A DNA stretch of 50,094 nt, taken from NCBI GenBank assembly GCA_019090385.1, contig JAHRWB010000208.1:1-50094 (forward strand), read 5' to 3'. Numbering within the stretch: the first letter of the stretch is position 1; each line of letters opens with the position of its first letter. The position numbers were made by a program, and so were the translations under genes. The notes beneath the pieces are model-generated. The model was given only the letters and a program-made list of their open reading frames with translations. It was not told the DNA's origin and ran no database searches. This document shows positions 9,617-49,981 of the stretch, in pieces. The stretch is from Pseudomonadales bacterium (GTDB taxonomy: Bacteria > Pseudomonadota > Gammaproteobacteria > Pseudomonadales > Azotimanducaceae).

Positions 9617-10117
9617 ATGGCATATACAGAACAAATTAAAGAAGAAGGTCTCGTAGAAAAACTGGTTCAGGTGAACCGGGTGGCTAAAGTTGTAAAAGGC
9701 GGACGCATATTCGGTTTTACCGCGTTGAGCGTGGTTGGTGATGGCGAAGGTAAGATTGGTTTTGGTCGTGGTAAAGCGTGTGAGGTTCCGCTTGCTATAC
9801 AAAAGGCGATGGAATCAGCCCGGCGTAATATGATCGAGGTGGAGCTGAATGGCACTACCCTGTGGTATCCGATTACAGAGCGCCATGGCGCATCAACGGT
9901 ATACATGCAACCAGCATCTGATGGTACCGGCGTTATTGCTGGTGGTGCCATGCGTGCGTTGCTTGAAGCCGCGGGCGTGCAGAACGTATTAGCCAAATGT
10001 TATGGCTCTACCAACCCCGTAAATGTGGTTCGGGCAACGTTTAAAGCCTTGAGTAAAATGCAATCTCCCCAGCAGGTGGCTGATAGGCGCCGCAAGAGTG
10101 TGGAAGATGTTTATTAG
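9617..10117 (+). CDS. rpsE: 30S ribosomal protein S5
   Basis: Decoding-fidelity protein at the mRNA entry. It has 166 residues (167 in E. coli). The double-stranded RNA-binding N-domain contains [17 protein letters not shown]; the C-domain has [13 protein letters not shown]. It starts 10 bases after rplR. Confidence 0.98.
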
Positions 10118-10120
10118 AAA

Positions 10121-10139
10121 GAAAACGCATAGCGTTTTC
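10121..10139 (+). repeat. perfect short palindrome between rpsE and rpmD
   Basis: GAAAACGC (10121-10128) and its exact complement GCGTTTTC (10132-10139) are separated by 3 bases. It lies 3 bases after the rpsE stop, inside the spc operon. In mRNA it would form a compact 8 bp hairpin. No T run follows, so a full terminator is unlikely; mRNA stabilisation or partial attenuation is possible. Confidence 0.5.
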
Positions 10140-10153
10140 GAGAAGGTGTTGAT

Positions 10154-10381
10154 ATGAGCGCAACAATGACTGATAAAAAGACTGATAAAAAAGCCGTCGC
10201 CGGCAAAACAGTCCGGGTAACGCAAATGAAGAGCGTTTCTGGGCGTCTTAAGCGGCATAAAGCCTGTGTTGCGGGTTTAGGCTTGCGTCGTATTGGGCAC
10301 ACTGTAGAAGTACTGGATACTCCGTCAAACCGGGGAATGATTAATAAAGTTAGCTATATGCTACGCGTGGAAGGCGAGTAG
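10154..10381 (+). CDS. rpmD: 50S ribosomal protein L30
   Basis: Small large-subunit protein. At 75 residues it is about 16 longer than E. coli L30. The extra part is a lysine-rich N-terminal extension (residues 1-16, rich in DKK repeats) ahead of the core starting [10 protein letters not shown]. The core motif [16 protein letters not shown] is conserved. A GAGAAGG ribosome-binding site precedes ATG 10154, but the internal ATG at codon 5 could also start it. Confidence 0.94.
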
Positions 10382-12475: not shown

Positions 12476-12832
12476 ATGGCGCGAATTGCCGGAATTAACA
12501 TACCAGACAAAAAACATGCGGTTATTTCATTAACCTATATTTTTGGGATTGGCAGAACCCGAGCCAAGCAGATATGCGTTGTAGCCGGTATTAAGCCTGA
12601 TGCGCAAATTTTGGATCTGACAGAAGCAGAGTTGGATAGTCTGCGTACTGAGGTGGGTAAGTTCTCGGTTGAAGGCGATTTGCGGCGAGAAACCTCCATG
12701 AACATTAAGCGCCTGATGGATTTGGGCTGTTATCGTGGCATTCGGCATCGCCGGGGCATGCCTGTTCGTGGCCAACGTACACGTACCAATGCCCGGACGC
12801 GAAAAGGACCCAAGCGGCCTATTCGTAAATAG
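12476..12832 (+). CDS. rpsM: 30S ribosomal protein S13
   Basis: Head protein that contacts the P-site tRNA and L5 across the interface. It has 118 residues, the E. coli length, starting [14 protein letters not shown]. The helix-two-turn-helix block [13 protein letters not shown] and the basic C-terminal [15 protein letters not shown] are conserved. It is first in the alpha operon; the 174 bp gap upstream holds a hairpin but no confident promoter. Confidence 0.98.
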
Positions 12833-12906
12833 CATTGAATGCATTGTTTTAAATTAGAAGTTAGGAAAATCGACTCAGCATATGCGGGTCCGGAGTAAGA
12901 ACTGAA

Positions 12907-13287
12907 ATGGCCGAATCAAGCCGTAAAAAAGATAAAAGAACCGTTATTGATGGAGTAGCGCATATTCACGCTTCCTTTAATAACACAATTATCACAATTT
13001 CAGACCGCCAGGGCAATGCGCTGTGCTGGGCGACGGCCGGCGGATCGGGCTTTAGAGGTTCACGAAAAAGTACGCCGTTTGCTGCCCAGGTTGCTGCAGA
13101 ACGTGCAGCGGCCGCGGCTGAAGAATACGGTTTGCAGAGCGTAGATGTCTACGTTAAAGGCCCTGGACCCGGTCGTGAATCGGCAGTACGAGCATTGAAT
13201 GCTGCTGGTTTAAGAATCAATTCCATTGCCGACATAACACCCGTTCCACACAACGGATGTCGTCCACCCAAGAAGCGTCGTGTTTAA
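12907..13287 (+). CDS. rpsK: 30S ribosomal protein S11
   Basis: Platform protein near the mRNA exit. It has 126 residues (129 in E. coli). The [19 protein letters not shown] and [18 protein letters not shown] blocks and the ending [13 protein letters not shown] are diagnostic. Confidence 0.98.
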
Positions 13288-13324
13288 GCGCATATATAAC
13301 GTATTTTAAGGAGAGGCTTGTATT

Positions 13325-13945
13325 ATGGCCCGTTATTTAGGACCCACATGTAAGTTAGCACGGCGCGAAGGAACTGATCTGTTTCTGAAGAGCGGTGTTC
13401 GTCCCCTGGACTCTAAATGTAAGGCCGATACTGTACCCGGCCAGCATGGAGCACGTCGTGGACGTTTATCTGACTATGCCGTTCAATTGCGTGAAAAGCA
13501 AAAAGTTAGAAGAATTTATGGTGTGCTGGAAAAGCAATTCCGTAACTATTACAAAAAAGCTGATAAACAGAAAGGTGCGACGGGTGAAAACCTGTTGGTC
13601 TTGCTCGAAACTAGGTTGGACAACGTAGCTTATCGCATCGGTTTTGGTAGTACCCGTGCGGAATCCAGACAACTCATTTCACATAAAGCTGTGCTTGTGA
13701 ATGGCAAGCCTGTCAATATTCCGTCGTTTCACATACAGCCTGACGACGTAATTAGTATTCGTGAAAAGTCCAAACCTCAGCTGCGTATCAAAGCCGCACT
13801 GGCGCTCGCATCTCAGCGTGGGGCGATTGAATGGATTGATGTGGACACGGAGAAGTTTGAAGGTGTATATAAGCGCCATCCTGATCGGGAAGAATTGCCC
13901 GCAGAAATAAACGAAAATTTTATTGTGGAGCTTTACTCCAAGTAA
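13325..13945 (+). CDS. rpsD: 30S ribosomal protein S4
   Basis: 16S assembly initiator and, in E. coli, translational repressor of the alpha operon. It has 206 residues, the E. coli length. The N-terminus [19 protein letters not shown] and the S4 RNA-binding domain around [19 protein letters not shown] (residues 116-134) are clear. A strong AGGAGAGG ribosome-binding site precedes the ATG. Confidence 0.98.
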
Positions 13946-41733: not shown

Positions 41734-41810
41734 GGCTACGTAGCTCAGCTGGTTAGAGCACAGCATTCATAATGCTGGGGTCGGTGGTTCAAGTCCACCC
41801 GTAGCTACCA
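41734..41810 (+). tRNA. tRNA-Met (elongator, anticodon CAT)
   Basis: A complete 77-base cloverleaf with encoded CCA. The acceptor GGCTACG pairs with CGTAGCT (one G-T), then A and CCA at 41808-41810. The anticodon loop TTCATAA at 41766-41772 gives CAT. The first pair and D arm fit elongator rather than initiator tRNA. It marks the boundary between core genes and accessory DNA. Confidence 0.96.
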
Positions 41811-42203: not shown

Positions 42204-42416
42204 CTAACGAGCTGCTCGCCTGGGCTCCTCTTCGTCGATGTATTTGAACATGCCGTACATAGTTGCTTCCTTGAGATAGTGGGGAAACTCATTGCCGGTT
42301 AGTATCAAAATAAAATCCGAGAGCGGACGCTCATTCAGGATTCTTGGGGGGCGGTAGCGTGCCCTTAGCTGACCTCCACTAGTTCTCGGCCCTGTGGTAA
42401 TGTGATCGTTCCACAT
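42204..42416 (-). CDS. small hypothetical protein, doubtful
   Basis: A 70-residue frame from ATG 42416, divergent from the first membrane paralogue with only 14 bases between the starts. The C-terminal half (FPHYLKEATMYGMFKYIDEE) looks protein-like, with an acidic then basic end. No family recognised and no strong ribosome-binding site; it could be the tail of a degraded gene. Confidence 0.3.
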   Translation of the reverse strand: MWNDHITTGPRTSGGQLRARYRPPRILNERPLSDFILILTGNEFPHYLKEATMYGMFKYIDEEEPRRAAR

Positions 42417-42430
42417 GATGGGTGTTCGCG

Positions 42431-42961
42431 ATGAATTGGGAAGCCGTTGGTGCAATTGCAGGTTTGATTGGCGTTGGGCTGGTGATCGTATCCCTACTAT
42501 ATGTGGGGATTCAGGTTCGCCAAAGCAATAAGGATGCGAAATCCCAGGCCAGGCAAGACTTAATTGACACCTTTGCGGGTCTCGGATGGGAAATGAGCTT
42601 CAAGCCGGAATTTCTGCGGATCGTTGCTGATGGCATCGTGAACTGGCCAAGCCTTTCCAACATGGAAAAGACCCAGTTCGATAATATCATGGGCCGTTAT
42701 TTATCTAATCTGCAGAAGGCGATTCTTCAAATGGAAGACGGCTTCTTGGATTCAAAAACTCTCGACCATTTTGGCAATCAGATGATCTTGTGTGTGCTCA
42801 TGCCTGGTGGTGAGGAATGGTACAAAGAAACAACATTGGCGGTCCCGGAGGTGAGAAGGTACATAGCAGATCGGTTTGATCACCCTGAGGGATTACCCCC
42901 ACCCGCTAGTGAGGCAATTCCTCACTGGATAGCGCTGGCCGCAGAAAAACAGGTTACCTAG
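42431..42961 (+). CDS. TM-anchored paralogue 1 of an uncharacterised family
   Basis: A 176-residue protein of unknown function. The N-terminus MNWEAVGAIAGLIGVGLVIV starts a single membrane helix (about residues 4-27) that ends in YVGIQVRQSN; the positive side suggests the C-terminal part is cytoplasmic. A helical soluble domain follows, containing the family landmark EDGFLD. ATG 42431 is chosen because all four paralogues begin M/L-(N/D)-W. Repeat copy A starts 10 bases after its stop. Confidence 0.75.
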   Translation: MNWEAVGAIAGLIGVGLVIVSLLYVGIQVRQSNKDAKSQARQDLIDTFAGLGWEMSFKPEFLRIVADGIVNWPSLSNMEKTQFDNIMGRYLSNLQKAILQMEDGFLDSKTLDHFGNQMILCVLMPGGEEWYKETTLAVPEVRRYIADRFDHPEGLPPPASEAIPHWIALAAEKQVT

Positions 42962-42971
42962 GTGGTCTGCT

Positions 42972-43108
42972 GTTGGCCGAATTGAGCCAGTTGCAAACCT
43001 AATTTGAACGTCGGCTTTCGAAAAATCCAATATTTTGTTAATTTGGATCGCATAAAAGTTGATAGCAGACGGTCCCTAGCGAACCGAAAACAGGCAGAAA
43101 AGTGCCCT
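42972..43108 (+). repeat. 137 bp intergenic repeat, copy A
   Basis: 134 of 137 bases match copy B at 46904-47040 (differences at three positions). It starts GTTGGCCGAATTGAG and ends AAAAGTGCCCT. Inside, ATCCAA and TTGGAT flank an AT-rich centre. It lies between paralogues 1 and 2, ending 58 bases before the start of paralogue 2. It has no open frame. Confidence 0.95.
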
Positions 43109-43166
43109 AAGGCGACATTTCCGCTTTCGTAATTTAAGCTAGTGCACCTACTTTGGAGTACCAAGA

Positions 43167-43619
43167 ATGGATTGGGATGCACTAGGAGCTATCGCTGAAG
43201 CCATCGGTGCGACTGCTGTTATCGTGACTCTAGTATATTTGTCGTTGCAGCTGCGCAATCAAAATGAAGTTGCTAAAGCTCAAATTCATCAACAGCGAGC
43301 AGATTCGGTAATTCAAATGATCGCTGGTTTGGATATTTCTGATACAGGCTTGTCGTTTTTAACAGAGCTTTTCGCTAATGATTTTGATGCGGCTCAAATG
43401 AACGATATGCAGCGAATGAGAGCGACACTAATCCTCTCTCCAATCAGAGCGAACCTCGAGAACACATACGACCAATACAAGAAAGGATTCATTTCTGAGG
43501 AGTTCTACAAGGATGTTGGCGTGCCGTTGTGCCGGACTTACGGACTGGCAATTCTCAGAATGAACTTACCTCTTACACGCAGTTTTAGGTCAGAGTTAGT
43601 CAAAATCGTTGAAGATTAG
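43167..43619 (+). CDS. TM-anchored paralogue 2 of an uncharacterised family
   Basis: A 150-residue protein with the same layout as the gene at 42431: MDWDALGAIAEAIGATAVIV membrane helix, then LQLRNQNEVAK, then a helical domain with the landmark KKGFISEEFY near residue 108. Function unknown. The ribosome-binding site TTGGAG lies 9-14 bases before ATG 43167. It follows repeat copy A. Confidence 0.8.
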   Translation: MDWDALGAIAEAIGATAVIVTLVYLSLQLRNQNEVAKAQIHQQRADSVIQMIAGLDISDTGLSFLTELFANDFDAAQMNDMQRMRATLILSPIRANLENTYDQYKKGFISEEFYKDVGVPLCRTYGLAILRMNLPLTRSFRSELVKIVED

Positions 43620-43908
43620 ACTAGATTCTTTCGGGTTTGAACGTTTCCAGTTAGCCGCAAACAGAAGTAACCGGTTGCCTTTGTAACGTCGGCTATGGAG
43701 CAACCCTGGTATTTTGTGATCTACTTCAAGCCTCGTGGCTAATCGGACGTAGCGAAGGGTATTCAGGAACGCGTGCTTCGTGCCCAGGGTGTGTGAAAAC
43801 TCAAAATCGCCTAATCTTGGTGACGTACCGTGTACTTGAGCCCATGTGAGCGATGCTAAACCATGATTACGTTAAATCGACATAATTCAATATTAAAAAC
43901 AGGATCAG

Positions 43909-44432
43909 TTAGAAGAGGTCTGGTTGAGGCTGCTTGTGGTGTTTTTTATACATAAGCTTGGCGAGGAACGAAAGCGTCTCGAAGACGAAGTGGGTGGTGC
44001 CGTTGCTGAAAGGGCGTTTAAGTTCATACACCACCTGTCCCGTTTCCTGGGTGGTCAATCGATCCAGGGCGAGAGGTGGTCGGGTAATGTAATGGCATAG
44101 TCGTTCCAAACGATCCCGTTGATGAGGTTGGCAGGAGACGGCGGCATTTAGCGAGAATCCGTCTCTACTGACGGTGAAGAGCTTGGGCTGGGTAGTAGTG
44201 CGATTGAGGGACTCAGAGCGAAGCGTCCAGGTTTTCTTACCGCTGTTGGGTCCGATTGCGATGCGGTAGCGCACCGAGGCGGCATTGAAGGAATCCTGAA
44301 GGTCAGCCTGAGCTAGATCGAGGTAGGGCTGTTCAGTTTCTTTAATCAATATCCCATCGCGTTCGCAAACCTTCTGCAGCGTACATCTTAGTCGGTCGTT
44401 TCGAACATCTCTGAGCCTTGCTATGGGGTGGT
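43909..44432 (-). pseudogene. IS91-family transposase fragment (middle part)
   Basis: The minus-strand frame from about 44432 to 43909 has no stop inside and resembles the central-to-late region of IS91-type (Y2, rolling-circle) transposases, including LERLCHYITRPPLALDRL and YELKRPFSNGTTHFVFETLSFLAKL (landmarks). After LAKL the family sequence is lost and a stop follows, and a TAA blocks extension upstream. Catalytic HUH and tyrosine motifs are absent. A dead fragment. Confidence 0.75.
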
Positions 44433-44453
44433 CAGGAAGTTATCGTTAGCACA

Positions 44454-44888
44454 ATGAATATGGCGCCCAACCAGTTGATGGAGACCTACCTGTTGGAGGT
44501 CGTCCTGAGAGGCCGGCTCGAACTCATCGAAGAGCTAGCTCTGCCCGACATGGTTGACGAGGCCAACGAGGCGTTCGGTGGACCGCCTGGGCGCGACGGT
44601 CTAGTGGCCCACGTTTTGGGCTTCCGGCGCAACGTCGATAATCTCCACCTCACCATCGACAGGATCATCGCTGGCACCAACGAGGTAATGGCGTGGTGGT
44701 CCTTTATGGGCAACCACGTTGGTCCGTGGCTCGGCCACACCCCGACCGGTCAGGAGATCGCGGGGACCGTTTTCAGCTTCTTCGATATCGTCGACGGTCG
44801 GATCAGCCATTACCGGTTCTGGCTTCATGCCATGTTAAACGAACACGTGGTGTTCGACTCGTCGCACCCGGCCCTCTCCCGGAGCTGA
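44454..44888 (+). CDS. SnoaL-like (ester cyclase / NTF2-fold) protein
   Basis: A 144-residue protein from ATG 44454 (a second ATG two codons later and an upstream TTG at 44418 are alternatives). The pattern GRDGLVAHVLGFRRNVDNLH, a WWSFMGNHVG strand and GTVFSFFDIVDGRISHYRFW is typical of SnoaL-like polyketide-cyclase domains; substrate unknown. Its GC content is visibly higher than its neighbours and it is surrounded by IS91 and IS3 relics, suggesting acquisition by transfer. Confidence 0.7.
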   Translation: MNMAPNQLMETYLLEVVLRGRLELIEELALPDMVDEANEAFGGPPGRDGLVAHVLGFRRNVDNLHLTIDRIIAGTNEVMAWWSFMGNHVGPWLGHTPTGQEIAGTVFSFFDIVDGRISHYRFWLHAMLNEHVVFDSSHPALSRS

Positions 44889-45178
44889 GCCCGCCACCGT
44901 ACCTTGATCGAAACCGCCATCCGACTCACCGGCAATGCGTTTTTCCTCTGGGGTGATTTGCACCGTCCACTGAAAATTATCTGAGCGCACTCGTCCAAGT
45001 GGAGAGTGGTCCCGGATGCGTACTTATCGCACGCGATTAATCCTACCCGCGCGTCGTGTTCGAATAGTGATTGGGGGCAAGATTTTTGTTTTCAAGCCAT
45101 TTGAAAATACACATTCGACGCCACAAACAGATCATCTCAATACAAATGTGAATTATTAAAGGAGAAAGCTATAAATGT

Positions 45179-45360
45179 TGTGCGATGGACAGAAGTGGAC
45201 CCCGGTATTTGAACAATGACTTAAGGTGTGGTCGATTAGCCTGAGGAGGTAATCGACATGGCGAAGAGAAGACAATACTCAGCTGAACTCAAAGCAAAGG
45301 TCACCGAAGATAGGACAGATTAAAGTACTATTCAAGAAAATGGCCGGGTATCGGAATTGA
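45179..45360 (+). mobile_element. IS3-family left-end relic with truncated orfA
   Basis: An IS-end-like sequence containing GGACAGAAGTGGACCCCGG (from 45187) is followed by GAGGAGGT and an orfA start at 45258: MAKRRQYSAELKAKV, the usual IS3 orfA beginning. After about 15 codons the frame breaks and ends at 45323; a shifted frame then reads IGQIKV, like the end of orfA. The rest, including orfB, is gone. An internally deleted relic. Confidence 0.65.
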
Positions 45361-45492
45361 GATATCTTGAGTTATTCGGGTGGGTTGTTCACTGAATTTG
45401 CGTGGAGGCAGCAGAATCACCAGCAATAGCGGGTCAAAGTCTCGCGAGGTTGTAATGCAATCGCGCAAGCGGGTTATTGACGACCCAGGGCA

Positions 45493-45780
45493 TCACGTTG
45501 ACGGCTCTAATGACGCGTCTATTTGAATCCCAGAGGAGATGGTTCCGCCTACTTTTACCGGCGGGTGTTCGCCGACACTCGGCGGGTGCAGAGGAGGCGC
45601 CTGCTGCTGATGGACGTGATCGAGGATCTTGCGGATGACGTCCGGCTGAGTGATTGTTGCTATCACTCGCAACCTGCCACACAGCTCAATATCCAGTTTG
45701 AAAACTCGTTTGAGTCTCTCTGCCCAGGAAAGCGGGGCGAGGAGTTCATCGGGTTCTGTTGAGGGCGGTGTTGGCTGAGC
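45493..45780 (-). pseudogene. IS91-family transposase C-terminal fragment
   Basis: A minus-strand frame, read from about 45780 down to a stop at 45493-45495, shows the classic tail of IS91 transposases: APLSWAERLKRVFKLDIELC, then LRVIATITQPDVIRKILDHV. The usual second CxxC cysteines after ELC are missing (a short deletion). Because transposase runs right to left, this C-terminal piece lies on the wrong side of the middle piece at 43909-44432, so they are not one simple broken copy. Confidence 0.75.
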
Positions 45781-46145
45781 CTTATATTCCCTTCTTTTTC
45801 CTGGCCACTAGCGATAACAATGGATCTTGTGACGGCTCTTTTAAGGGTGGCGGCCCTGGCATTATTCAAATCATTGACAATTCCCGGCTTGCTTTTCCGG
45901 ACTATGAAGGCAATGGGGCATTCATGAGTGTTGGAAATATTTAAGAAAACCCTCATGTGGGAATACTGCTTATTGATTTTAATGATGGTGGCCGATTGCG
46001 TATTAACGGTCGGGCATCAGTCCATGACAATGGTGTAATCAAGGAATTGTTTCCTGACCATCCACGAGTAATTCTGGTTGAGGTTGAGCAGGTAGTCCCC
46101 AATTGTGCTGAGCATGTTCCGAGACTTGTTCCCCTAGTTGAGTGA
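45759..46145 (+). pseudogene. pyridoxamine-phosphate-oxidase-like flavin-binding protein, broken
   Basis: The frame from 45786 reads FFFLATSDNNGSCDGSFKGG, then LAFPDYEGNGAFMSVGNI, an in-frame TAA at 45942-45944, then ENPHVGILLIDFNDGGRLRI and NGRAS. This is the FMN-binding split-barrel pattern of PPOX-family proteins, with one stop inside the core strand region. The N-terminus is cut near the IS91 fragment border, and the end is near normal. TAA is not a recoding codon in bacteria, so I call it a pseudogene. Confidence 0.75.
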
Positions 46146-46303
46146 ATGACCGCTTCTGGCCGAAAAAACGGGTTGCCTGGCCTTTTGGATAGGTCCGCTA
46201 TCTGGAAAGACGAGACTCATAATCACGCTTTGACGGACGCTAAAGTACTGCCCATAGCTGCGTTCTCTCGATTGATTCATACTGTGGCCATTTGGGGAAG
46301 TAG

Positions 46304-46771
46304 ATGAACTGGGATGCGATTGCTGCTATCGGAGAATTAATCGGCGCCGTTGGCGTTATTGTTACCCTGGTGTACCTGGGCTATCAAATCCGACAAAACA
46401 CGGGAGAGCTAAGACAAGGAGCATTTCGCGACGTGTTCGGAGCGTTCTCGAACTATAGGCAGTCGGTATATGCGAATCCAGGTGTTGCGAATCTCTTGGA
46501 GAAAGCCTCGATAAATCCAGAAGAACTTTCAAGTACAGAAGAAATCCAGCTAGAGCACTTATACAGCGAAGGAGGATTTGTAGTTTTGCAACTGTGGCGA
46601 ATGATCCGAACCGGAAGGATACCGGAACAGAGTTGGCCCCATGCGAAACGTCTCTATCTTAACGTTCTTATAAGTAAGCCTGCGCAAAAGTGGTGGGCGA
46701 TCGATAAAGATGCTTTCGATCCTGATTTTGTTGAGGAATTCGAATTGCACCTTGTTGGTCGAGATATCTGA
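46304..46771 (+). CDS. TM-anchored paralogue 3 of an uncharacterised family
   Basis: A 155-residue protein starting MNWDAIAAIGELIGAVGVIV, with one membrane helix ending YLGYQIRQNTGE and a C-terminal helical domain with the landmark RTGRIPEQSW near residue 104. Function unknown. ATG 46304 follows GGGGAAG. It is the first family member right of the mobile-element relics; repeat copy B begins 132 bases after its stop. Confidence 0.8.
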   Translation: MNWDAIAAIGELIGAVGVIVTLVYLGYQIRQNTGELRQGAFRDVFGAFSNYRQSVYANPGVANLLEKASINPEELSSTEEIQLEHLYSEGGFVVLQLWRMIRTGRIPEQSWPHAKRLYLNVLISKPAQKWWAIDKDAFDPDFVEEFELHLVGRDI

Positions 46772-46903
46772 GCGCGGGAGAACGGGAACGAGAAACTGAC
46801 AACTGAACGAATCAGCCACTTCCGGCCCAAGGCCCGAAACCTCGGCTTGGTGCGCTGCCGTTGAGACTAGCTAGAGGTCTTTGCAGGACGCGCTACGTCC
46901 GCA

Positions 46904-47040
46904 GTTGGGCGAATTGAGCCAGTTGCAAACCTAATTTGAACGTCGGCTTTCGAAAAATCCAATATTTTGTTAATTTGGATCGCATAAAAGTTGATAGCCG
47001 ACGGTCCCTAGTGAACCGAAAACAGGCAGAAAAGTGCCCT
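46904..47040 (+). repeat. 137 bp intergenic repeat, copy B
   Basis: Near-identical to copy A (three substitutions, no gaps). It lies between paralogues 3 and 4, ending 54 bases before the start of paralogue 4, close to the spacing seen for copy A and paralogue 2. Confidence 0.95.
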
Positions 47041-47094
47041 TAGCAGACCCTTTGTTAAACGTTAAGCTTGAGGTTTTCGAATTGGAGGTGGGAA

Positions 47095-47574
47095 TTGGAC
47101 TGGAACGCTATTGGAGCTATCGGCGAGGTTATTGGGGCAGCGGGTGTTGTTTTTTCGCTGATTTATCTTGCAACACAAATTCGCTCCAGCTCTAAACAGG
47201 CGAATGCAGACACGATCTACAACCTTCAAAAAGGTCAGTCAGATGTTATGGAGATGTTTAGTAGCAATCCTGATATTGCAAAACTACTAGTCAAGGTCCA
47301 ACGCGGCGACTCTTTAGAGGCTCACGAAGATGTCCAAATCGATTTTATCGTCGCCCGCGCAGTGGGCATACACGCAGCTATACAAGCTGCTGCCGATTCT
47401 GGAATTATAGGTGAAGATTACCTGGAAGATATCGATACTAGCCTTACCCTGTTTGCATCTAATTTTAAGCTAGCGGAAAAAATGTGGCGCTTCGCCAAAG
47501 TTGCCCATCCATCCGTCAGTGACGGGCGGATTTTCAAAAAGCTACGTTTGGCTGTGGGTAACACCCAAACATAG
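47095..47574 (+). CDS. TM-anchored paralogue 4 of an uncharacterised family
   Basis: A 159-residue protein starting at TTG 47095 (LDWNAIGAIGEVIGAAGVVF), 6 bases after GGAGGT at 47083-47088; the frame extends upstream to 47068, but family alignment and the ribosome-binding site favour the TTG. One membrane helix ends YLATQIRSSS; the helical domain has the landmark DSGIIGEDYLED. Function unknown. The partial repeat C begins 15 bases after its stop. Confidence 0.78.
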   Translation: MDWNAIGAIGEVIGAAGVVFSLIYLATQIRSSSKQANADTIYNLQKGQSDVMEMFSSNPDIAKLLVKVQRGDSLEAHEDVQIDFIVARAVGIHAAIQAAADSGIIGEDYLEDIDTSLTLFASNFKLAEKMWRFAKVAHPSVSDGRIFKKLRLAVGNTQT

Positions 47575-47589
47575 CTTCTATGTCCCTTA

Positions 47590-47624
47590 TTGCCCGAATT
47601 GACCCAGTTGCAAACCTAATTTGA
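47590..47624 (+). repeat. truncated third copy (C) of the 137 bp repeat
   Basis: The first 35 bases of the repeat (TTGCCCGAATTGACCCAG to AATTTGA, with two to three changes) follow paralogue 4; similarity then stops abruptly. It shows the repeat follows family genes closely and that this copy was cut or replaced. Confidence 0.8.
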
Positions 47625-47831
47625 GTGGATGAACACTCGAGAACCAAGGTCTTAAGTACGTTCTGTAATGGTGAACACATATTCCGCTCAACACCCGAAT
47701 TCAATGATATGTGGCATGAGGTTGATCTGAATGAAGTCGTCCAGGAGGTGCAGTTTGTTGCCGATGTGAAGCGTGAGCTGGCCAAACGATACCGCCCATT
47801 TGCACGCGCGCAAATCATTGAGCATTGTTGA
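47625..47831 (+). CDS. small hypothetical protein
   Basis: A 68-residue frame from GTG 47625 immediately after the truncated repeat. The sequence (WHEVDLNEVVQEVQFVADV then KRELAKRYRPFARAQIIEH) is charged and helical, protein-like, but not recognised. The first residues abut the repeat break, so it may be the 3' part of a gene whose start was lost. Its stop overlaps the next start by one base (TGATG). Confidence 0.4.
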   Translation: MDEHSRTKVLSTFCNGEHIFRSTPEFNDMWHEVDLNEVVQEVQFVADVKRELAKRYRPFARAQIIEHC

Positions 47832-48118
47832 TGACACTACAACTAGATAATTACCAATTTGAAGAAATCGATATAAATTTTGAAGGACAGCTTTTCGAGA
47901 ATGTATTCCTTAGCAAAAATAACAAATCGGTTCGCGAAACCCTTGCTCACAAGAGATACAGGACACTCAGCGAGACTACTATCAAATTGTACCCCGACTA
48001 TTTGCATTGGCTGTTAGGTGACTTTCTATACAAATCCTCATCCATCTTCAGCTTGTATAGAAAGTCACCTAACAGCCTCAGCTCTCTCGACATGCGACTT
48101 CCCTACACTTGGCTCTAA
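47831..48118 (+). CDS. small hypothetical protein containing half of a long palindrome
   Basis: A 95-residue frame from ATG 47831, coupled to the previous stop. No family recognised. A perfect 25 bp inverted repeat lies within its 3' third, so the last 35 or so residues are probably not original sequence and the gene may be truncated. Its end overlaps the end of the convergent GIY-YIG gene by about 40 bases. Confidence 0.4.
   Translation: MTLQLDNYQFEEIDINFEGQLFENVFLSKNNKSVRETLAHKRYRTLSETTIKLYPDYLHWLLGDFLYKSSSIFSLYRKSPNSLSSLDMRLPYTWL
48009..48077. repeat. perfect 25 bp inverted repeat
   Basis: The arm 48009-48033 (GGCTGTTAGGTGACTTTC and seven more bases) is exactly complementary to 48053-48077, with a 19-base loop. 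The right arm ends at the base next to the stop codon of the minus-strand GIY-YIG gene (48078-48080). There is no T run on either side, so it is not a standard terminator. Confidence 0.95.
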
Positions 48119-48611
48119 GCGTAGATAGTTGAGGCAATGAGTTGGGATTGTTAGCTGTGTTCATAGGCGGAACGTGCATCCCAATCAGTTTCTTTTCCAC
48201 ACTCCTCTCTGGCGTATCTGAGCATACCCAAGAAATTGCGAGATTGGAGTTTATCCACTGGATGATTTCCGCAGTATCAGTTTCGGAGAATCGGTAGTTT
48301 TTCTGATTCTTCTTATTCCGAAGCGAGCCCATTGGAGGGCTAAATCCTAACACTGCCCCGAGCCCCCTGAAGAATGTGGCAGGACTCTTGTGTCGGAGTT
48401 CCTGTCTACAAAGTCTGGTCAAGAGGGATCTTGTTGCGATTCCAATGTATAGGATCCCATTCGAATCGATGCGATTGAGCATCCAGCTAGGTAGCAGAGC
48501 GTTATCTGCTATGAATATTGCGTAGTATCCACTACTTGATGGAACCACACCTTCCGCGTCAGCTGCAGATGCCTTCGGGACCAACAGCTCTGATTCGATA
48601 GTTTCTAGCAT
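48078..48611 (-). CDS. GIY-YIG nuclease family protein
   Basis: A 177-residue protein. The N-terminal GYYAIFIADNALLP and ILYIGIATRSLLTRL give the spaced GYY / YIG signature of GIY-YIG endonucleases; conserved downstream blocks are LRHKSPATFFRGLGAVLGF, KNYRFSETD and NPNSLPQLSTLRAKCREVA. This matches a stand-alone family of about 170 residues found in accessory DNA; a nuclease role is inferred. ATG 48611 follows AAGGTGA. Inverted repeats sit at both its ends. Confidence 0.75.
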   Translation of the reverse strand: MLETIESELLVPKASAADAEGVVPSSSGYYAIFIADNALLPSWMLNRIDSNGILYIGIATRSLLTRLCRQELRHKSPATFFRGLGAVLGFSPPMGSLRNKKNQKNYRFSETDTAEIIQWINSNLAISWVCSDTPERSVEKKLIGMHVPPMNTANNPNSLPQLSTLRAKCREVACRES

Positions 48612-48664: not shown

Positions 48665-48948
48665 AGGATCGCGGCTCGTTAACTTTGGTGTATAATCCAC
48701 TGTTCTCATTAAGGAGCTGCCTATTTTTGACGTTTGAGCACTCCTGATAATACGGACCTGTATCCTAGATTGCCAATATTAGGACAGCCGATGTTTGTCA
48801 TTGGAAGGAGGCGGACATTAAGGGGTCGCTTTGGGCACTTTTCGAACGCCCGCCGTGTAGCTCGCTGAACATCCGCTTCCTCAAAAGCTGTCACTCGCCC
48901 CGATGAAAAACTACTTCGCTACCTGTTGAGAGGATAGGAAAAATAAAA
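48665..48948. other. non-coding gap before the cassette run
   Basis: About 280 bp with no credible gene. A TATAAT at 48691-48696 lacks a good -35 box. GTTGAGA at 48925-48931 lies 24 bases before the GNAT start, the same distance at which the next two cassette junctions precede their genes, so it may be the left junction of the first cassette; no full attC or attI is seen around it. Confidence 0.35.
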
Positions 48949-49374
48949 GTGCACATGGAGGTATCTATCAATATTCGTAAATATACAGCCGCTGATCGGA
49001 CGGGCTTGATATCGCTTTGGGAAAATGAATTTCCAGACGATCCACCTCACAATAAACCGTCCATTGTTATTGATTCAAAACTTAAAGTTGATGATTTAAT
49101 ATTTGTTGCGGAGAAAGATGGGAATATCATCGGGTCATGCATGGCTGGTTATGATGGCCATCGCGGTTGGCTTTATTCAGTTGCAGTCTTAAGCTCTGAA
49201 AAAAGATGCGGCTTAGGAACCCAGCTGGTAAAGCATGCAATGAGCTACTTAAAGGGTATTGGGTGCGTGAAAATCAACCTACAGATACGATCCACAAATA
49301 CACAAGTAGCTGCATTCTATGAGTCGCTCGGTTTTTCGGTTGAAGATCGCCTTAGTATGGGTGTGTTTTTGTAA
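48949..49374 (+). CDS. GNAT-family N-acetyltransferase
   Basis: A 141-residue acetyl-CoA-dependent acetyltransferase, substrate unknown. The pattern FVAEKDGNIIGSCMAGYDGHRGW, the acetyl-CoA loop LSSEKRCGLGTQLVKHA near 82-98, and the C-terminal NTQVAAFYESLGFSVEDRLSMG resemble YpeA-type enzymes. GTG 48949 has AGGA 9 bases upstream; ATG 48955 is the alternative. An attC-like site begins just after the stop, so it reads as an integron gene cassette. Confidence 0.88.
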   Translation: MHMEVSINIRKYTAADRTGLISLWENEFPDDPPHNKPSIVIDSKLKVDDLIFVAEKDGNIIGSCMAGYDGHRGWLYSVAVLSSEKRCGLGTQLVKHAMSYLKGIGCVKINLQIRSTNTQVAAFYESLGFSVEDRLSMGVFL

Positions 49375-49376
49375 AT

Positions 49377-49487
49377 GCATAACAAAGCAAGGCAATCTGA
49401 CAGCTTACTCTCCATTTCTGTACGTGCGAAAAAATATTCGCACATACAGAAATTCCGTTACAGCTGCAGTTGCTTGCGGCGTTATGT
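49377..49487 (+). other. integron attC-like recombination site 1
   Basis: It opens with GCATAAC (49377-49383) and closes with GTTATGT (49481-49487). The L arms GCAAGGCAA and TTGCTTGC pair with one unpaired G, the extra-helical base typical of attC. The centre holds a 17 bp arm hairpin (49414-49430 with 49437-49453, one mismatch). It starts 3 bases after the GNAT stop. Length 111 bp, within the attC range. Confidence 0.75.
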
Positions 49488-49520
49488 GTCATTTAAGCAG
49501 CGAGCAAGGGGAATATCTAG

Positions 49521-49892
49521 TTGAGTGAATCAGAATTTCTAGAGGTCATAAATCTGCATGCTGGTAATGCTATTACCAGTTTTTCTGTGCTTATAACTTA
49601 CTTGTTTGGCTTTATCACCGCAGCATACATAGTTGGCTCAAAGCTATCGAAGGTCCAAGTACTAATGATTTCGATTTTGTACATCTTGTCATGCTTTGTT
49701 TGGATAGTATCGGTTCTCACGCATGCCGATTCTTTTGCAACGCTAGTAGCTGCTCATCCAGATTACGTTCCTTCTCCTTTTTGGTTGCTACCCTGGCCTG
49801 TTCTCGCTGGTTTTATTGGAATTAGCGCCCTAGCTGCTAGTTTGTATTTTATGTATGACGTACGCTCAAAAGATGTCCAGTCCAACACATAA
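49521..49892 (+). CDS. small three-helix membrane protein (cassette gene)
   Basis: A 123-residue protein from TTG 49521, with AAGGGGA 8 bases upstream. Three hydrophobic segments are seen at about residues 16-37, 46-65 and 90-112. No known family. It begins 34 bases after the closing R box of attC 1 and its stop codon lies within the opening R box of attC 2, the compact layout of a cassette gene. Confidence 0.7.
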   Translation: MSESEFLEVINLHAGNAITSFSVLITYLFGFITAAYIVGSKLSKVQVLMISILYILSCFVWIVSVLTHADSFATLVAAHPDYVPSPFWLLPWPVLAGFIGISALAASLYFMYDVRSKDVQSNT

Positions 49893-49961
49893 CAAATAAA
49901 GGCAGCAAGGGCACTTCGCGCCGGGACTCGCTAACGCTCGCCCCTGCTTGAAGCGTTAGGC
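49887..49961 (+). other. integron attC-like recombination site 2
   Basis: It opens with ACATAAC (49887-49893) and closes with the consensus GTTAGGC (49955-49961). Imperfect inner arms GGCAGCAAGGGC and GCCCCTGCTTG face each other across a short centre. Length 75 bp. It overlaps the end of the upstream gene and precedes another gene start by 20 bases. Confidence 0.75.
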
Positions 49962-49981
49962 CGCAAAAATAGTATTGAGAT

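Follow-up and report, generated by a model that had tools for sequence, protein, structure and literature searches.

The window that we analysed is a stretch of 50,094 nucleotides from a Pseudomonadales bacterium of the Azotimanducaceae (GenBank assembly GCA_019090385.1, contig JAHRWB010000208.1) and is the complete contig C195 of the source genome, G000, which is assembled in 229 contigs; among the other genomes named below, G019 is a congener and the remaining G numbers denote relatives. Core genes fill its first 41.8 kb and the remainder is variable, and it is in this variable part that the two subjects of our analysis lie: four plus-strand genes for related small membrane proteins, and a short repeated element in the spacers before them. 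The genes encode proteins of 176 amino acids (member 1, 42431–42961, with an N-terminal membrane helix), 150 amino acids (member 2, 43167–43619), 155 amino acids (member 3, 46304–46771) and 159 amino acids (member 4, 47095–47574, with a TTG start), each recognised as an open reading frame (ORF), by alignment and by a profile match. Between members 2 and 3 there are about 2.7 kb with a SnoaL-like gene (44418–44888; PF07366, E 4e-20). The core-gene stretch is closed by what we take to be pth and ychF and by a tRNA-Met (41734–41810, plus strand, from the tRNA search), which we take as the left border of the variable region; at 16 of 27 further ychF loci a tRNA-Met is likewise close to that gene.

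That the four genes are homologous, with a common N-terminal start, a membrane helix, a Q-x-R boundary and a mid-domain glycine, had been proposed in an initial annotation of this DNA, and the proposal is borne out both by the alignment, in which an M-x-W-x-A start, a helix of small residues, the Q-x-R and the mid-domain G form invariant columns across all four proteins, and by a profile of 87 relatives, built with the window sequences excluded, which matches all four (E 2.2e-34, 5e-33, 4.1e-28 and 1.1e-25) and the next ORF of the window only at E 2.1. Pairwise amino-acid identity is 24–35% and is concentrated at the N-terminus, where 14–20 of the first 33 residues are identical, as against 16–30% beyond. 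The best 19-residue hydropathy window begins at residue 5 in all four proteins (mean 2.03–2.55), and AlphaFold, run on the four window sequences, returned an all-helical model of low confidence (predicted local distance difference test score of 67), for which comparison with the PDB gave no match at E 0.001. We infer a family of small inner-membrane proteins with a single anchor and an otherwise helical body; by the positive-inside rule the N-terminus would lie outside and the helical part inside, probably in the cytoplasm. As to what they do, an accessory membrane role or a role in defence are guesses. The four proteins had no match in NCBIfam or PHROGs at E 0.01, and those in Pfam and PADLOC were at chance level (best E 0.033 in Pfam, and 0.023 in PADLOC, for member 2 with PDC-S02). 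The family alignment found nothing in viral contigs, nor did member 4 find relatives among plasmids or member 3 among phages.

The initial annotation had also called this family widespread as hypothetical proteins, which is true only near home. Its profile matches 22 of 58 relatives including the source genome (21 of 57 others), whereas in a phylum-wide sample, at E 1e-6, it matches 3 of 299 genomes including the source genome (2 of 298 others), so that, at the search sensitivity used, the family is common among close relatives and rare beyond them. Some relatives are rich in it: G008 has 28 matches, and G026 has 64 on many contigs (L047–L053), with several of the fetched genes standing head to tail.

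The spacers between members 1 and 2 and between members 3 and 4 hold the two main copies of the element, both on the minus strand: copy 1 (42955–43130), 37 bp before member 2, and copy 2 (46895–47055), 40 bp before member 4. Each was recovered as a DNA repeat, by R1, a sequence model of the element made from 10 copies, and by a wider nhmmer profile, which was run on fetched loci only. The two copies can be aligned over 152 bp at 95%, and within a 130-bp core (42979–43108 versus 46911–47040) they agree at 128 of 130 positions (98.5%); outside this core, 11 of the outer 14 bp agree on the left and 7 of 14 on the right, and the sequence beyond falls to 16–21%. The earlier description of a repeat of about 98% identity between these members, with a cut copy after member 4, and far more alike than the genes that it separates, is thus accurate: core identity of 98.5% stands against 24–35% for the proteins, and the cut copy (47572–47627, minus strand), at the stop codon of member 4, is seen by nhmmer and, at 47590–47624, as a DNA repeat of 94–97% identity.

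What had been overlooked are the weaker copies at 42318–42387, 46141–46260 and 48817–48915. The first of these, partial and on the minus strand, lies 44 bp before member 1 (nhmmer E 0.046; R1 E 0.001 at 42313–42384), and the second, also on the minus strand, lies 44 bp before member 3 and was found by nhmmer alone (E 0.038) and missed by R1, the nhmmer values for these weak copies referring to the 697 kb searched. With them, all four genes have an element 37–44 bp upstream in one and the same orientation. The third (48817–48950, plus strand) has the opposite orientation and precedes a GNAT acetyltransferase gene (R1 E 9e-15 at 48817–48915; nhmmer 48818–48950). Scans for promoters and terminators gave results at chance level, yet two terminator-like matches lie within the two main copies.

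The repeat belongs to a divergent family of intergenic elements of about 150 bp. A plain DNA search at E 0.001 finds it at three places in the source genome and in none of 199 other genomes of the bacterial-family sample, and weaker relatives are present in the congener. Across 20 genomes R1 finds elements in six: seven places in G000, 17 in G019, one in G005, with a few weak hits elsewhere; since contig ends overlap, two of the G019 hits (C9:1-81 and C18:420673) represent a single place, and the 17 were therefore counted as 16. Because only 150 first-look candidates per genome were scored by R1, the copy numbers are lower bounds, and absence is no proof. With stricter filters, R1 finds the element in 9 of 200 genomes, the source genome included, with weak hits in G136 and G156; the wider profile adds one clear G019 copy (C3 96504–96607), which is away from family genes, and some weak ones. 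In G136, which belongs to another genus, a family gene has element-like copies on either side, apparently in tandem upstream of it (L176, G136:C276, 466–1520). Several of the G019 copies are located at the end of a contig or close to it (C3, C9, C18), so assembly may break in element-rich islands.

Our hand-written consensus of the element spans about TGTCCGCTTAGGGCACATTTGAG to CGGCCAATAGCGGACAT. Among the 10 closest pairs of copies, identity is 80% in the core (830 of 1032 positions), 48% at the 5′ end (58 of 120), 51% at the 3′ end (49 of 97) and 25% outside (21 of 83), the ends being taken as the terminal 11–12 columns. A young transposon would be expected to show ends as well conserved as its core, which is not the pattern here.

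Several other identities for the repeat were considered and not adopted. As an attC site it would need a RYYYAAC/GTTRRRY pair, and by eye there is none at its ends; its fold is unremarkable (z −1.2 to −1.6), and its orientation relative to the genes varies. A plasmid or phage element is not indicated, a search for one having given no match, and two element patterns found nothing in viral contigs. For a structured RNA the signs are weak: an Rfam scan of the window returned two tRNAs and nothing else, and the consensus fold is weak, RNAalifold on 14 copies giving −1.04 kcal/mol and six pairs, one of them with changes on both sides. Genome-wide spread of the kind seen for repetitive extragenic palindromes (REP) or bacterial interspersed mosaic elements (BIME) was likewise set aside: R1, which scored 150 of the 920 candidates, finds at least 7 copies in 3.57 Mb. 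In the first 41.5 kb of the window, short motifs showed no clear excess over shuffled sequence (GTCYGCTTT 2 versus 0.6; GTCYGCT 6 versus 8.9), and a 20-base core pattern met two stretches in the genome_contigs collection (L081, L082), about the number that we estimate for chance (1); neither holds a family gene (the best ORF, in L081, reaches E 0.9) or an element match at E 0.05.

How closely the element is tied to the family genes depends on the scale at which the two are compared. By hand count, 12 of the 23 R1 copies of G000 and G019 have a family gene no more than 300 bp away, including 6 of the 9 copies that seeded R1 and 6 of the 14 that did not; for random placement the expected coverage, assuming 28 family genes, is about 0.2% of the genomes. 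The element stands on the same side, and at a similar distance, on C146 (45 bp) and at G019:C3 98070 (56 bp) and, as a remnant seen by eye, on C216. The expectation that many repeats would stand beside different members at like spacing is therefore sustained; the other 11 of the 23 copies are away from family genes, as is the nhmmer-only copy on G019:C3. On that contig, a hand count gives about 12 genes, with a family gene close to 2 of the 6 R1 copies; by our own estimate this is roughly what two family members among some 12 genes would give, and so there is no clear preference within the island. Taken over whole genomes the coupling is thus real, yet it could still reflect co-residence.

In relatives, the visible means by which such genes are moved is the integron. 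Immediately after the GNAT gene, towards the right end of the window, lies a clear attC site (49377–49487, plus strand), whose hairpin (49363–49490) has a z of −6.45, with 0 of 200 shuffles as good, and whose L-box stem pairs at 8 of 8 positions. A possible second site (49887–49961, plus strand) is doubtful: it has R boxes at both ends by eye, the fold of 49880–49965 is no better than shuffles (z 0.45), and the attC finders were silent. Genes homologous to those of the window occur as cassettes in G005:C9, G019:C31, G008:C142 and contig C17 of the source genome itself. On G005:C9 (L174 1–13700), an intact intI gene above the TIGR02249 cut-off (12720–13658) has to its left 22 near-identical attC-like sites of 96 bp, mostly 0.4–0.9 kb apart, and a family ORF (9735–10250) sits between two of them (9635–9730 and 10259–10354); the generic attC finder is noisy, calling 11 sites in 41 kb of core genome, and was therefore trusted only for this regular and strong array. 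On G019:C31, eight attC sites resembling Vibrio cholerae repeats form an array at 57–62 kb with several family genes. In a half-site tally of 93 rows from chosen loci (in which a G005 gene and two G019 genes that are split or broken appear twice), attC halves at E up to 1 adjoin 11 of 19 family genes in G008, 8 of 14 in G019, 1 of 4 on other contigs of the source genome (C17) and 1 of 20 at other loci; at a stricter E of 0.05 the first two become 9 of 19 and 7 of 14. An integrase above the family cut-off was found in 6 of 11 relatives tested, in one of them with a stop. The source genome has none above the cut-off, although an assembly in 229 contigs may miss one; what it does have are pieces of a broken integron integrase with in-frame stops, at C68 5860–6443 and C193 2855–3133 (L172, L173), and neither contig carries a family gene or, below E 0.7, an attC half-site of the G008/G019 type.

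Element and attC meet directly in the congener. Among 25 element entries, three, all from G019 (C11_1594, C11_2380 and C3_97274), begin in the 5′ half of an attC site, with scores reached by 0 of 200 shuffles, and by eye the start point within that half is the same in all three. With only these three cases, insertion of the element into attC is a lead and not a rule.

A probable explanation, though one that we hold with some reserve as to mechanism, is that the four genes are the cargo of a decayed integron-type cassette island whose spacers carry an intergenic element. Such an island would sit after ychF and the tRNA-Met. In relatives, judging from anatomy and not from experiment, IntI appears to move genes of this kind as cassettes via attC; in the source genome only broken integrase is seen, and the four window genes lack a recognisable attC. 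The 130–150 bp repeat would not be the carrier; it would represent one clade of a short interspersed element that occupies spacers where relatives have attC sites. Because three G019 copies start at the same point in the attC 5′ half, the element probably inserted into spacers or into attC sites, or else passed from spacer to spacer by gene conversion, and either process would leave unrelated genes separated by copies whose cores are nearly identical and whose ends differ. The locus, more regular than the initial annotation saw, is most readily understood as the cargo of a decayed cassette island with an element in its spacers, and not as a repeat-carried system. Under this explanation, an unnamed protein family gains a home as chromosomal-integron cargo in this bacterial family, and the element appears to occupy the spacers between cassettes of a decayed integron.

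Several observations weigh against a decayed cassette island. None of the four window genes has an attC as far as half-site models can tell, and other attC types are conceivable, these models knowing the G008/G019 type only and having drawn both their seeds and their later extension from the same loci. In G026, attC of the tested type adjoins 0 of 32 family genes, which indicates that a cassette life of these genes is not universal. The remaining element entries among the 25, including all of those in the window, lack an attC half (shuffle share at least 0.06); the spacing of 37–44 bp before the four genes is more regular than random insertion predicts; and on G019:C11 the orientation of the element is reversed.

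This regular spacing also speaks for the view advanced at first, namely that in a modular system the repeat moves or recombines and carries the genes as variable cargo. Four of four window genes have a copy at this distance and in one orientation, two of these copies being weak; about half of the copies in G000 and G019 are near family genes; the core is far more conserved than the proteins; and in the other genus, G136, element-like copies flank a family gene on both sides. That repeat and gene together form the mobile unit is, however, not supported: nearly as many copies lie away from family genes, the orientation reverses in G019:C11, R1 finds no copy in family-rich G026 or G008 (150 candidates scored in each), and wherever mobility can be seen (G005, G019, G008 and C17) it is attC that flanks and accounts for the cassettes. 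We therefore regard a repeat-carried system as unlikely.

If, instead, the array had arisen by plain tandem duplication of paralogues, with an unrelated repeat in the spacers and no part for integrons at this locus, its model would be G026, where the family is abundant, several genes stand head to tail and no attC of the tested type is found at the 32 genes inspected; the lack of attC at the four window genes fits as well. Against this, the members share only 24–35% identity, the SnoaL-like gene and some 2.7 kb intervene between members 2 and 3, an attC stands at the window's right-hand end, and an integron context is present in the congener and on contig C17, all of which makes simple duplication improbable.

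That the element is a recombination site in its own right, served by a short (208 amino acids) tyrosine recombinase found in the G019 element arrays, seems to us very unlikely. In its favour, two G019 copies of this recombinase (L062 2504–3130 and L112 6978–7604), 91% identical, each stand directly behind a partial element; the recombinase occurs in 11 of 200 genomes and the element in 9, with both in 4; a conserved core with unlike ends would suit such a site; and short stretches resembling the GGTCGNAAGCGGAC motif of the element can be made out by eye ahead of the recombinase gene in L126 (G012) and L129 (G148). Were it correct, cassette arrays could keep shuffling after the loss of IntI. 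But G000 has elements and no such recombinase at E 1e-20, the element profile is silent (E 0.05) at 11 recombinase loci outside G019, a loose regular expression met a single upstream place (L130) that was not counted as an element, the matches in G136 and G156 are weak, and the recombinase is common on plasmids generally (457 records). Equally a long shot is the proposal that the element serves, besides attC, as another type of boundary between cassettes, its core swapped between spacers while the ends differ, which would hold single-gene cassettes, chiefly of this family, with a constant spacing to the following start codon and would perhaps be served by the same recombinase.

Among known systems, the proposed decayed cassette island most resembles sedentary chromosomal integrons and clusters of attC sites lacking an integron integrase (CALIN), with which it shares single-gene units of unassigned function in a variable array, attC-flanked family genes in G005, G008, G019 and its own C17, and one clear attC site in the window, at its right end; it differs in that the four genes have no detected attC and that the integrase survives in this genome in pieces only. 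The element itself is short, non-coding, divergent and intergenic, with imperfect inverted ends, like the repeats known as miniature inverted-repeat transposable elements (MITE) or BIME, but it is few-copy and clustered in islands, no transposase was identified for it (none was searched for), and, unlike a MITE, its terminal inverted repeats are not well conserved, the ends reaching 48–51% and the core 80% among the 10 closest pairs. A fixed place of insertion in attC, as the three G019 copies suggest, recalls the IS1111-attC group of insertion sequences, which target attC (PMC11187229). The element is, in contrast to that group, non-coding and about 150 bp long, and it starts in the middle of the attC and not at one end.

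The rest of the variable region contains the following. The GNAT gene next to the clear attC (48949–49374, plus strand; PF00583 and NF002959 above cut-off) is cassette-like, and between that attC and the doubtful attC-like stretch lies a gene for a small protein (49521–49892, plus strand), an ORF with no library family above cut-off. At 45258–45323 there is what we take to be the start of an IS3-type transposase orfA, with a stop after 21 codons. A GIY-YIG gene occupies 48078–48611 on the minus strand, and at its 3′ end is a perfect 25-bp inverted repeat with a 19-nt loop (48009–48077), the arms of which include GTTAGGT/ACCTAAC.

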